From: Lachnospiraceae bacterium
GTDB taxonomy: Bacteria > Bacillota > Clostridia > Lachnospirales > Lachnospiraceae
Assembly (NCBI GenBank): GCA_017440575.1
Contig: JAFSGY010000111.1
Coordinates: forward strand, 1-46,521
Reading direction: 5' to 3'
Length of the DNA stretch: 46,521 nucleotides
The first letter of the stretch is position 1, and each line of letters opens with the position of its first letter. The notes under the pieces are model-generated. The model saw nothing but the letters and a program-made list of their open reading frames with translations. It was not told where the DNA came from and made no database searches. Made by a program: the position numbers and the translations under genes. Positions 27,546 through 46,194 of the stretch are shown here, piece after piece.

Positions 27546-28571
27546 TTAGTCATTTAACTGCTTTAATACTCTTAAATCAGATTCAAACAATAACTTGATA
27601 TTGTTGATACCATACTTTAACATTGCCGTACGCTCAATGCCGATACCAAATGCCAATCCACTATATTCATCCGAATCAATACCACAGTTTTCAAGTACCT
27701 TTTTATTTACAACGCCTGCACCGAGAATCTCAATCCAGCCTGTTCCCTTACAAAGCTTACAGCCCTGACCGCCACACTCAAAACAGCTACAATCAACCTC
27801 TACAGATGGCTCTGTAAATGGGAAGTAAGAAGGACGAAGTCTTGTTTTAGTACCTTCTCCATAAATCTTGCTAACGAATACATCAAGCATACCCTGTAAA
27901 TCGCAAAGCGTAATTCCCTTATCTACTACAAGACCTTCCATCTGCGTAAACATTGGTGAATGTGTAGCATCATCATCGGAACGGAATACTTTACCAGGAG
28001 ATAATATCTTGATAGGCGGCTTCTTGTTCTCCATAACATGAATCTGTCCTGCAGATGTCTGTGTTCTTAACAGAAACTCTGGTGACAGATAGAACGTATC
28101 CTGCATATCTCTTGCCGGATGATCCTGTGGTGTATTCAATGCGGTAAAGTTATAATAATCGGTTTCGATTTCTGTTCCCTCGAAGATTTCAAAGCCCATT
28201 CCTGAAAATACATCAATAAGCTGATTACGAATTAATGTGATTGGATGTAAGTTACCCTGCTCTGACTTCTCTGCAGGAAGAGAAATATCAATCTTCTCTG
28301 ACTCATATCTGTCCTGAAGCTCTTTTGCCTTCATCTTCTCGTCAAGTCCACCAATAAAGTCTAATGCCCAAACCTTTAATTCGTTCACACCCTTACCATA
28401 TTCAGCCTTCTGGTCATTCGGAATGTTCTTCATTTCCTTCATCAGTAAGCCAATCTTACCTGTTTTTCCATCCAAATACTTCTTTCTGAATTCATACACT
28501 TCCTTAGAGGAATTTAATTCATCGGCTCCAGCGATGATTTCCTGCTTAATCTGCTCTAAATTCGCGTTCAT
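27546..28571 (-). CDS. pheS: Phenylalanine--tRNA ligase alpha subunit
   Basis: Protein of 341 residues, full length. The N-terminal coiled coil (residues 1-90) is followed by the class II core with motif 2 [23 protein letters not shown] and motif 3 [18 protein letters not shown]. The zinc-like pair [19 protein letters not shown] sits in an insertion common to Firmicutes PheS. It makes phenylalanyl-adenylate and charges tRNAPhe with PheT. AAGGAG lies before the ATG. Upstream is a T-box leader, and between the T-box terminator and the start is the structured element at 28598-28674. Confidence 0.97.
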
Positions 28572-28597
28572 CTTATTACTCCTTTCATGATTAGCAA

Positions 28598-28674
28598 TCG
28601 AGTAGGTACTAACCTACTCGCTGTGCCAAGCGCATGCAGCAAAGCTGCAAATTACCTTATGCACTTGTGCACAT
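28598..28674 (-). repeat. Structured RNA/repeat element, copy A (5' UTR of pheS)
   Basis: Read on the minus strand: TGTGC-A-CAAG pairs with CTTG-GCACA (bulged A), enclosing an apical GCAGC/GCTGC hairpin. A 9-bp hairpin CGAGTAGGT/ACCTACTCG follows immediately. It starts directly after the T tract of the T-box terminator and ends 26 nt before the pheS ATG, just in front of its ribosome binding site. A second copy (46061-46134) has the same layout, with compensatory changes at three base pairs. Confidence 0.7.
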
Positions 28675-28945
28675 AAAAAGTCCCTTGTACTGTTAAGTAC
28701 AAGGGACGAATGTTATCGTGGTACCACCCAAATTCCCGTTTGTCTTATATATTTCAAACGGCTCTAACGAACGTAACGTGTTCTTCTACGTCTCTGCCTA
28801 CCTATTACAAAACACTTCAACAGAGCTGCTCCGGTGGGAAATTCGATACTATATCTGAACTTAGGAGGCTTTCAGCCGGTGACCTCCACTCTCTGGCAGA
28901 AAATATAGCTCTACTTTGCACCTTCCATGCATTTTTATTTTCATA
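28675..28945 (-). promoter_or_regulatory. T-box leader of pheST (tRNAPhe sensing)
   Basis: The minus strand shows the parts of a T-box in order. Stem I region has AGAGAGTGGAGGTCACCGGC and GCTGAAAGCCTCC. The specifier region GAATTTCCCACC contains the Phe codon TTC (28838-28840). The T-box sequence GGGTGGTACCACG (28717-28729) pairs with the tRNA acceptor end. A terminator (28680-28707) follows. Uncharged tRNAPhe stabilises the antiterminator and permits pheST transcription. The gene identity agrees with the specifier. Start is placed from the promoter at 28952-28980. Confidence 0.93.
28680..28707 (-). terminator. T-box controlled terminator of pheST
   Basis: A perfect 11-bp stem (GTCCCTTGTAC/GTACAAGGGAC) with a 6-nt loop is followed by TTTTTATG. 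It is preceded by the T-box sequence with which it competes. Confidence 0.92.
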
Positions 28946-37001: not shown

Positions 37002-37191
37002 TTCATTCGTATACTCCAAAATGCCGGCTCCAGTATTTTGACTCCTAGCCAATGCTAGGTGGGTGACCGCAGCCTTTCTCTCTGCCTTCCCCTAGCCATA
37101 ATGGGGGGCATGACATCAATCAGGCGATATAGGAATCCCGTTTAAAGTGATGTAGGTTCAAAATAACAAGAGTAATCGCACATTTCAGATT
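36973..37191 (-). ncRNA. ssrS: Stand-alone structured RNA, probably 6S RNA
   Basis: A transcript of about 220 nt is bounded by a near-perfect promoter (37198-37226) and a strong terminator, with no ORF, in the 430-bp gap between SpoIID and a histidine kinase. It contains TTGAACCTACATC, GGGATTCCTATATC, GATGTCATGCC, then a CCCC/GGGG hairpin, and GGTCACCCACCTAGC with hairpin CCTAGC/GCTAGG followed by GAGTC. The ACCCACCT-hairpin-GAGTC block and the overall layout match my recollection of clostridial 6S RNA, which binds the sigma-A RNA polymerase holoenzyme and tunes transcription in stationary phase. The assignment needs a covariance-model search; as an independently transcribed RNA it is more certain. 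Confidence 0.65.
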
Positions 37192-37197
37192 AACCTT

Positions 37198-44461: not shown

Positions 44462-46036
44462 TTATAAAAGAGGGGACATTACCTTCATGACACGCCCTAT
44501 AAACTTCACTGTAAACTTTTCCTTTTTCATCGTTTCCACTGTTACCATTCTACTCTTTTCCAGCGTTTCCTGAAAGTCCTTTTCTATTTCTGAAATACAA
44601 CTTGTCTTATATAAATAAGTTGCACATTCATAGTGATGATATAGACTTCGATAATCCATATTTATCGTTCCTACAACAGCCTTACAATCATCACTGACAA
44701 ACACCTTGGCATGCACAAATCCCGGTGTATACTCATAAACTTTCACACCTGATTTCAAAAGTGAAGCATAGTGTGTCTTAGCCAAAGCGTAAGGAATCTT
44801 TTTGTCCGGAATTCCCGGAAGTATCAGTTTTACATCCACACCACGCTCTGCTGCAAATTTTAAAGAAGCTTCTAATTCATTATCCAGAATCAGATACGGT
44901 GACATGATATGTACATACTCTTGAGCACGATTCAGAATATCCATATACACACGTTCTCCAACCTTATCTTCGTCTAACGGACAATCCCCATAAGGTATCA
45001 CATAGCCTTCTGCACACTGTTTAGGAAACTCAACATCTGATAAATATTGATGAAACTCCGGCTTTTTCACATCCATATTCCACATCTGCAAAAACATCAA
45101 AGTAAAGCTTTTTACTGCCTCTCCTTTCAACATAATAGCGGTGTCTTTCCAATGACCAAATCTCTGGATATGATTAATATATTCATCCGACAAATTCACA
45201 CCACCGTTAAAAGCTGTATGCCCATCAATCACCAGAATCTTACGATGGTCGCGATAATTATAATGCGTTGATACAAATGGTGAAATCGGCGCAAACATCT
45301 TACATTGGATTCCCAATGCAGCAAGACGTTTCGGATAATCATGCGGAAGTAATGCAAATTCACACATTCCGTCATACATAACACGAACATCAACGCCTTC
45401 CTTAGCCTTTCGCGCTAAAATTTCCAACACCTTTCCCCACATCAAGCCCTCATCTATAATAAAATATTCTAAAAAGATAAATCGTTCTGCCTTTTCCAAT
45501 TGTACTAACATCTCTGCAAACTTATCTTCACCCAATGGAAAATAAGTTACTTCTGTATTATCATAAATTGGATAACAGCCTGTTCTCGCAATATAACTTG
45601 CCAATGCGACTGTTTCCGGACTCTCTGACTGAAGCCTATTGACCGTTTCTTCTTTTTGCGGAATACTATCTTTCGTTTCCTTAATTAACTGATTCAAGCG
45701 CCCCTTCTCTGCACGATGCCCTATTTCCATTCTTGTATATAATAAAAGTAAAGCCCCAAATATTGGAAGCAGTGTAATCAAAATCAACCACGTTATCTTT
45801 GCTGTTGCATCCATTGATGTATTCAGCAGATATATTACTACGCAAACACTAAACAAAACCGTTGCACCATAATAATGTGGAAGCAACTCCGAAAACCAGG
45901 TGAAAAAACTAAATAATAACCCAAAATTAACTAATAACAGAATTGCTATCAAACCGGTTCTTCCAAATATCGCCTGTAAGATTCCCTTTTGCCCCTTTTC
46001 CAGGAGCGACAATCCTTCGTTTTCTTTCTCTCTCAT
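44462..46036 (-). CDS. cls: Cardiolipin synthase
   Basis: Protein of 524 residues with GAGGG about 6 nt before the ATG. Two membrane segments (about residues 26-50 and 55-72, the second followed by TKITWLILITLLPIFGALLL) precede two phospholipase D domains. The HKD motifs are HRKILVIDGHTAFNGGVNLS in the first and VHAKVFVSDDCKAVVGTINM in the second. It condenses two phosphatidylglycerol molecules into cardiolipin and glycerol at the membrane. Just upstream of its ribosome binding site is copy B of the structured element. Confidence 0.95.
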   Translation of the reverse strand: MREKENEGLSLLEKGQKGILQAIFGRTGLIAILLLVNFGLLFSFFTWFSELLPHYYGATVLFSVCVVIYLLNTSMDATAKITWLILITLLPIFGALLLLYTRMEIGHRAEKGRLNQLIKETKDSIPQKEETVNRLQSESPETVALASYIARTGCYPIYDNTEVTYFPLGEDKFAEMLVQLEKAERFIFLEYFIIDEGLMWGKVLEILARKAKEGVDVRVMYDGMCEFALLPHDYPKRLAALGIQCKMFAPISPFVSTHYNYRDHRKILVIDGHTAFNGGVNLSDEYINHIQRFGHWKDTAIMLKGEAVKSFTLMFLQMWNMDVKKPEFHQYLSDVEFPKQCAEGYVIPYGDCPLDEDKVGERVYMDILNRAQEYVHIMSPYLILDNELEASLKFAAERGVDVKLILPGIPDKKIPYALAKTHYASLLKSGVKVYEYTPGFVHAKVFVSDDCKAVVGTINMDYRSLYHHYECATYLYKTSCISEIEKDFQETLEKSRMVTVETMKKEKFTVKFIGRVMKVMSPLL

Positions 46037-46060
46037 ATTTTCCCTCTTGTATCATATATA

Positions 46061-46134
46061 TCGAGTATTTCATGCATACTCGATGTACTAGGCGCAGGCA
46101 ACCTACTGCAGCCTGCGTAATGCACCTATGTACA
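46061..46134 (-). repeat. Structured RNA/repeat element, copy B (5' UTR of cls)
   Basis: On the minus strand TGTAC-A-TAGG pairs with CCTA-GTACA with the same bulged A as copy A. The apical part is GC-rich (CGCAGGC/GCCTGCG). It is followed directly by the hairpin TCGAGTAT/ATACTCGA. It begins just after the terminator of the upstream gene and ends 24 nt before the cls ATG. The layout matches copy A at 28598-28674. Confidence 0.7.
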
Positions 46135-46137
46135 TAA

Positions 46138-46163
46138 AAGGGACACATTTCCATGTGTCCCTT
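46138..46163 (-). terminator. Terminator of the upstream carboxykinase-like gene
   Basis: A perfect 11-bp stem (AAGGGACACAT/ATGTGTCCCTT) with a 4-nt loop has TTTTATG after it on the minus strand. Confidence 0.9.
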
Positions 46164-46194
46164 AAAGTTCATTTATAAAGCTATCGCGTACTAA

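Follow-up and report, generated by a model that had tools for sequence, protein, structure and literature searches.

A short structured repeat of about 75–90 nt, built from two hairpins, a conserved one on the 5′ side (H1) and one on the 3′ side (H2) that ends in CTACTCGAT, is a real, abundant and mobile element that is undescribed in the sources searched and is not a regulator. Its insertion site, used in a single orientation, is TTTTTA^T immediately behind an intrinsic terminator. The 3′ hairpin, with its end (CCCTACTCGAT), corresponds to domain VI and the 3′ terminus of group II introns of the same genus that are here called IIC-like, an informal label based on their Rfam class, the similarity of the protein, the sequence of domains V/VI or the position at a terminator. 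The explanation that we favor, with a confidence slightly above even, is that of a non-autonomous, core-less element mobilized in trans by the machinery of IIC introns, in other words, a SINE-like parasite of group II introns.

The window, that is, the whole stretch of 46,521 nt analyzed here, is contig C71 of a genome of 2.83 Mb that is 78% complete, and it carries two copies of the element on the minus strand. The ends assigned by the covariance model R1 (see below) lie at most one base away from those first proposed. Copy 1 (28597–28673) has 77 nt, runs from TGTGCA to CTACTCGAT, and scores 99.9 bits with R1 and 83 bits with R2. Its H1 (28622–28673, minus), delimited by folding and by pair counts on alignment A5, consists of a 5-bp foot, a bulged A, a 9-bp stem, a AAGGTAATTT bulge and an apical hairpin. 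H2 (CGAGTAGG...CCTACTCG; 28599–28620, minus) resembles domain VI of IIC-like introns and is directly followed by the 3′ end AT (28597–28598, minus). Copy 2 (46060–46134) is more diverged, with 75 nt running from TGTACA to ATACTCGAT and 69.6 bits with R1. Both copies fold better than 200 of 200 shuffled sequences (z of -6.2 and -3.8, respectively), and each is immediately preceded by the T-tract of a terminator (TTTTTA or CTTTTA). For copy 1, this terminator (28674–28707, minus), recognized from the sequence, provides the T-tract and A (TTTTTA) that constitute the insertion target. It belongs to the T-box leader of pheS (28699–28936, minus; RF00230, 109.9 bits), which corrects the first description. 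The pheS gene itself (27546–28571, minus; TIGR00468) has its start ATG at 28571, 25 nt downstream of the copy. The terminator upstream of copy 2 (AAGGGACACATGGAAATGTGTCCCTTTTA; 46135–46164, minus) was likewise recognized from the sequence, and the gene downstream of the copy is cls, coding for cardiolipin synthase (44462–46036, minus; TIGR04265), whose start ATG at 46036 is 23 nt away; both gene names are those of NCBIfam models. The original prediction of two structured copies, each placed right after an intrinsic terminator and shortly before a start codon, is thus borne out. The window also contains a 6S RNA at 37009–37194 on the minus strand (RF00013, 59.2 bits).

The element is widespread in the genus. 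A 15-base motif with up to two mismatches gave 39 matches in the genome of the window, compared with 10 for the reversed control, and inspection of the first 30 of the 39 identified six real copies (three with no mismatch, two with one and one with two). With the covariance model R1, built from these six copies, nine copies in the same genome pass E ≤ 0.01; one more reaches E 0.057, and three matches are weaker still. A second model, R2, built from 55 diverse sequences and applied with a cutoff of E ≤ 1e-5, finds the element in 36 of the 38 genomes of the genus, the own genome included, so that the further copies anticipated in related genomes were indeed found. The highest numbers are at least 96 in G007, 80 in G015, 79 in G040, 71 in G042 and 63 in G021, all of them lower bounds, with up to 119 candidates scored per genome. 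At the other extreme, G016 and G052 have no copy and G001, G019, G046 and G051 have one each. When 196 genomes were drawn evenly from the order and searched with stricter filters, 8 of them, again including the own one, matched at E ≤ 1e-6. Genome contigs scanned with a strict pattern yielded 84 stretches, and the records concerned bear the titles Lachnospiraceae, Roseburia, Eubacterium, Eubacteriaceae, Clostridiaceae or Clostridia. One 85-nt query matched none of 72,556 plasmid and 50,697 phage records, and one strict pattern returned no stretch from viral contigs. No known class could be named at first, and Rfam likewise gave no match to the element in the loci searched from the own and other genomes; searches of the open-access PMC literature brought up no title or opening of an abstract on an element of this kind.

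The structure of the element is well conserved. H1 comprises the 5-bp foot TGYRC, a bulged A, 9 bp, a 5′-sided bulge or internal loop around AAGGAAAT, and a small apical hairpin, while H2 is formed by CGAGTAGGG...CCCTACTCG, followed by AT. For alignment A5, 11 of 147 hits were dropped, nearly all for a length outside 70–92 nt, followed by the near-identical ones, and seven of the 62 remaining rows (L059, L062, L063, L071, L083, L091, and L134), some with a different 5′ or 3′ end, were removed by hand. Among the 55 distinct sequences of A5, 93.1% of the cells pair and 23 of the 28 pairs have changed on both sides. Double changes amount to 228 cells, against a mean of 72 in shuffles, and pairing drops to 25–49% when the structure is slid along the alignment. 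The compensatory changes first noticed between the two copies are therefore real, and a selected structure is supported. An A·C mismatch in the foot of H1 (columns 4 and 55) is conserved in 32 of the 55 rows and replaced by G-C or A-U in other rows. Wobble pairs are divided between G·T (84) and A·C (70) and give no clear indication of which strand or nucleic acid folds.

The position of the element is fixed by the terminator. For the 91 copies that are first in their array and have enough flanking sequence, position -1 is A in 86 cases, the eight bases that precede it include five or more T in 81, and a stable fold lies upstream in 89; at random places, such folds were found in 705 of 2000 cases and the T-tract together with the A in 28 of 2000. 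Matches of 3 nt suggestive of a TSD were found at 7 of 119 copies, which is not above the shuffled level (mean 6.0), and the type 1 element has no terminal inverted repeats, its ends TGYRCA and CTACTCGAT not being inverted. Copies also accumulate in tandem: of 95 arrays, 78 consist of one copy, 14 of two and three of three, the gap between neighbors being exactly 0 in 18 of 20 cases. By eye, such neighbors often differ in subfamily. A TGYRCA-like start was seen after 32 of 90 arrays, in comparison with 50 of 5000 random places.

The mobility of the element is well supported. Five identical copies occupy five different places in Lachnospiraceae bacterium 28-4, and the same is true of CANDKY, where one of the five is at a contig edge. 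The pheS T-box locus was inspected in 30 of the 36 genomes that gave a match, and a clean full-copy model hit was found at the pheS terminator in seven of them. Two more hits at pheS, L223 (20.7 bits) and L224 (19.8 bits), correspond to a copy with an internal deletion, over which the model match is stretched. By eye, the pheS loci of G003, G014, G022, and G049 contain fragments, one further locus is masked, and the terminator is empty in many sister species. In G020, for instance, the pheS terminator is the same without the element, apart from a few flanking differences; G020 also lacks the element at dnaX, where G000 and G023 have it. In the G023 locus L207, between the pheS T-box and pheS, a copy lies behind a second long hairpin instead of the T-box terminator, and another long palindrome follows it. 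Several 5′ fragments of the element but almost no orphan 3′ hairpins were noticed by eye, most 5′-end hits of the regular expression being due to chance. Copying from the 5′ end, which this asymmetry of truncation might suggest, was not retained, since deletion between short repeats together with selection for the terminator explains it equally well. When placed directly 3′ of a terminator, the element should harm neither of its neighbor genes.

The original prediction had left the choice between a 5′ UTR regulator and a mobile palindromic element. The second half of this alternative stands, with the refinement that the element shares its 3′ end with IIC-like group II introns; the first half is contradicted by the orientation of the downstream genes, the abutting arrays and the empty pheS terminators. 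A cis-regulatory RNA acting on the downstream gene would account for the conserved structure and for the location of both window copies between a terminator and a start codon. Nonetheless, a fixed sense position before the regulated gene was not found: the downstream gene is on the same strand at 85 of 118 places and on the opposite strand at 33, while the upstream gene is on the same strand at 90 of 113 (simple ORF calls with some misplaced starts, after removal of four duplicate places). In other words, it is the upstream terminator, and not the downstream gene, which fixes the position of the element, and this, together with the 33 opposite genes, does not support a 5′ UTR regulator. Furthermore, the same pheS terminator lacks a full copy in 23 of 30 species, and copies lie against one another in arrays. 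Regulation of this kind is accordingly very improbable.

The preference for terminators leads to the group II introns. IIC introns insert after intrinsic terminators, as described in sections of PMC4424553 and PMC8919778, and recognize a DNA hairpin with short IBS1 and IBS3, according to passages of PMC4424553, PMC3898094 and PMC8919778. In G007, a group II intron (L187; RF02001 and RF01998; protein TIGR04416) is located at TTTTTTTA behind a hairpin and ends in CCCTACTTGAT; the T of an element follows without a gap. The intron L247 of G048, behind a tRNA and a terminator, likewise adjoins an element at its 3′ end; these are two of the 15 distinct IIC-like introns with a readable 3′ flank. Of the 12 IIC-like introns that were aligned, eight end in CTACTYGAT, one in CTACTCTAT and three identical ones in CTACCCTAT; the next base is T in all 12, and in the eight cases with a visible 5′ flank, a hairpin and then a T-rich tract lie before the intron. 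None of six distinct other group II introns ends in CTACTYGAT, although one is a single base away (CTACTCGAC followed by T). The arrays of the element end in CTACTYGAT in 33 of 90 cases and in CTRCYYGAT in 55 of 90. T follows the array in 73 of 90 cases; once those in which another copy or fragment begins there are set aside, it does so in 41 of 58. Searched with a sequence profile of H2, five of seven IIC-like introns gave a hit at the 3′ terminus, with 14.3, 14.3, 13.9, 9.3, and 4.7 bits, and the other two (L267 and L241) gave no clear hit there. The best of 35 shuffles reached 4.2 bits, hardly below the weakest of these hits (4.7 bits, in L247), and one hit of 5.7 bits falls elsewhere in L266. 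Three group II introns of Lachnospiraceae bacterium 28-4 (L267, L270, and L272) have equal protein scores and identical 3′ ends at different terminators; in L270, the 5′ end of a second intron is found 256 bases away.

On these grounds, the dependence of the element on IIC introns is likely. Of the features of these introns, the element has the insertion directly 3′ of an intrinsic terminator and the domain VI-like 3′ hairpin with a 3′ end AY, here CTACTCGAT with T mostly as the next base. On the other hand, it differs from them in its size of about 80 nt, in its start and in the absence of a detectable core: no match to RF00029 or D1D4, as a sign of domains I–V, was obtained on the element in six loci of the own genome (E ≤ 10) or in L099, L078, and L113 (E ≤ 1), and it encodes no reverse transcriptase or IEP. 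Instead of the GUGYG of group IIC introns, all 55 rows of A5 start with TGYRCA (the left-out L062 and L063 start otherwise, also not with GUGYG). The place of the bulged branch-point A of domain VI is occupied by a paired and covarying position (columns 65–88: U-A 29, C-G 18, and U-G 5). Genomes with hits to group II intron proteins (17 of 38) have a median of 26 elements versus 11 in the 21 genomes without (one-sided p = 0.27; Spearman 0.12), in a search with one IEP as the query at E ≤ 1e-20 whose hits include other group II classes; the element-rich G040, G021, G015, and G014 gave no hit to this single query. The absence of a correlation might be accounted for by MAGs that are incomplete and by a driver that has been lost, but as a null result it counts against the link with the introns.

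H1 has no counterpart in the introns. A profile of H1 searched against them with nhmmer gave nothing above shuffles, the best hits being shuffles themselves, and a derivation of H1 from DIVa or domain I of the intron was discarded on this result and on the folds of the DIV region, which show no H1-like shape by eye. This conserved, covarying hairpin weighs against the notion that the copies are dead internal-deletion derivatives of IIC introns that have never moved by themselves. Such remnants would share their target and 3′ end with the introns, as is observed, but they would not be expected as identical copies at different places, nor as many elements beside few intron proteins; we consider this origin quite improbable. 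A similarly small chance is given to a bacterial group III-like mini-intron, which would also be excised from transcripts in trans by a IIC core. In size and composition (a 5′ hairpin plus a domain VI-like hairpin, with no domain V), the element does resemble the Euglena group III introns as portrayed in parts of PMC4424553 and PMC2882425. However, its 5′ end is not intron-like, the branch A is not conserved, and most of the copies inspected sit between called genes.

H1 is also found in other carriers. In family f11, it lies within a unit of about 145 bp, between inverted-repeat ends (TATAGTAAACGAC/GTCGTTTACTATA) with TA flanks; near-identical copies of a unit of this type occur at L282–L284 and L288–L306 (G187, G211, and G126). 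In a third carrier (L065, L092, and L146), H1 is surrounded by a 5′ hairpin TATACTG..CAGTATA and a 3′ hairpin ATACTCAC..GTGAGTATA. The presence of H1 in these units indicates that it is a module of its own, and its presence between the inverted repeats of f11 that it can move without IIC-like ends; other carriers may thus move it. A long palindrome CGAGTAGACTTG..CAAGTCTACTCG, lying outside any H1 element, is present as one and the same stretch in two records, L088 (1871–1910) and L154 (4057–4096).

The main rival of intron-driven mobility is a mechanism acting at the DNA level, in which a non-autonomous element of the IS200/IS605 type, the REP/RAYT type or another folded single-strand system inserts 3′ of TTTTTA and has acquired its domain VI-like end by convergence. 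Two hairpins, the lack of terminal repeats or a TSD, and a fixed 5′ target are a hallmark of single-strand transposition, and this is the anatomy of the element. The occurrence of H1 in the inverted-repeat unit of another family is in line with such a mechanism, as are the genes for a Y1 transposase (PF01797) in 15 of 25 genomes. Nevertheless, the other 10 gave no Y1 match, among them G005, G006, G013, and G014, with 15 to 41 elements, and in the 30 Y1 loci only two model hits were close to the gene, at a distance of about 1 kb and 0.4 kb (L166 and L167). The Y1 transposase is therefore a weak candidate for the partner. In addition, regular-expression searches of the loci examined showed no longer element bounded by these two ends, and a DNA-level mechanism leaves unexplained both the CTACTCGAT common to the introns and the preference for terminators. 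Overall, we regard it as unlikely, although clearly ahead of the alternatives discussed above.

In its complete form, the intron-driven explanation describes a bacterial retroelement of a new kind. This RNA of about 80 nt, with neither an intron core nor coding capacity, would combine a novel hairpin with nothing of a IIC intron but the domain VI/3′-splice-site end, and would be copied in trans into terminators by the intron ribonucleoprotein. This version is plausible, at somewhat less than even confidence. The RNA of the element, with its domain VI-like 3′ end, would be taken up by the ribonucleoprotein of a IIC intron, possibly through binding of H1 to the intron protein. The intron core would then pair with the terminator target and join the 3′ end of the element to the DNA of the 3′ exon, after which the intron reverse transcriptase would copy the element RNA. 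The 5′ end may be joined by repair, a step that would need no intron-like sequence, and this fits the absence of GUGYG. At a terminator that is used repeatedly, newer copies would push the older ones downstream, giving rise to the arrays.

The palindromic repeats of the REP/RAYT, BOX, and MITE groups are also short, high-copy, intergenic and non-autonomous. The type 1 element differs from them in being bound to terminators, with no transposase adjacent in the loci examined; the terminal inverted repeats and TSD of MITEs are absent from it, whereas the f11 unit with H1 does have inverted ends. The ORF-less group II introns of Thermosynechococcus, as presented in part of PMC2882425, similarly rely as non-autonomous copies on a driver protein encoded elsewhere, but they have lost only the ORF and keep the ribozyme, which the element does not have. 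The group III introns of Euglena chloroplasts, in the portions of PMC4424553 and PMC2882425 devoted to them, measure 90–120 nt, in some cases contain only DI- and DVI-like parts with no DV, and presumably depend on trans factors. In those accounts they lie in genes and are spliced, whereas the element is intergenic.

If the proposed dependence on IIC introns is true, the element would be a bacterial counterpart of SINEs and of the Euglena group III introns. A separation of the intron core from its mobile substrate has been proposed for the origin of spliceosomal introns. This separation, inferred for the plastids of Euglena, would then exist in bacteria, where it could be tested in culture. 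For the Lachnospiraceae, the element is an abundant repeat found behind the terminators of many genes, and it is relevant to genome annotation and to surveys of regulatory RNAs.
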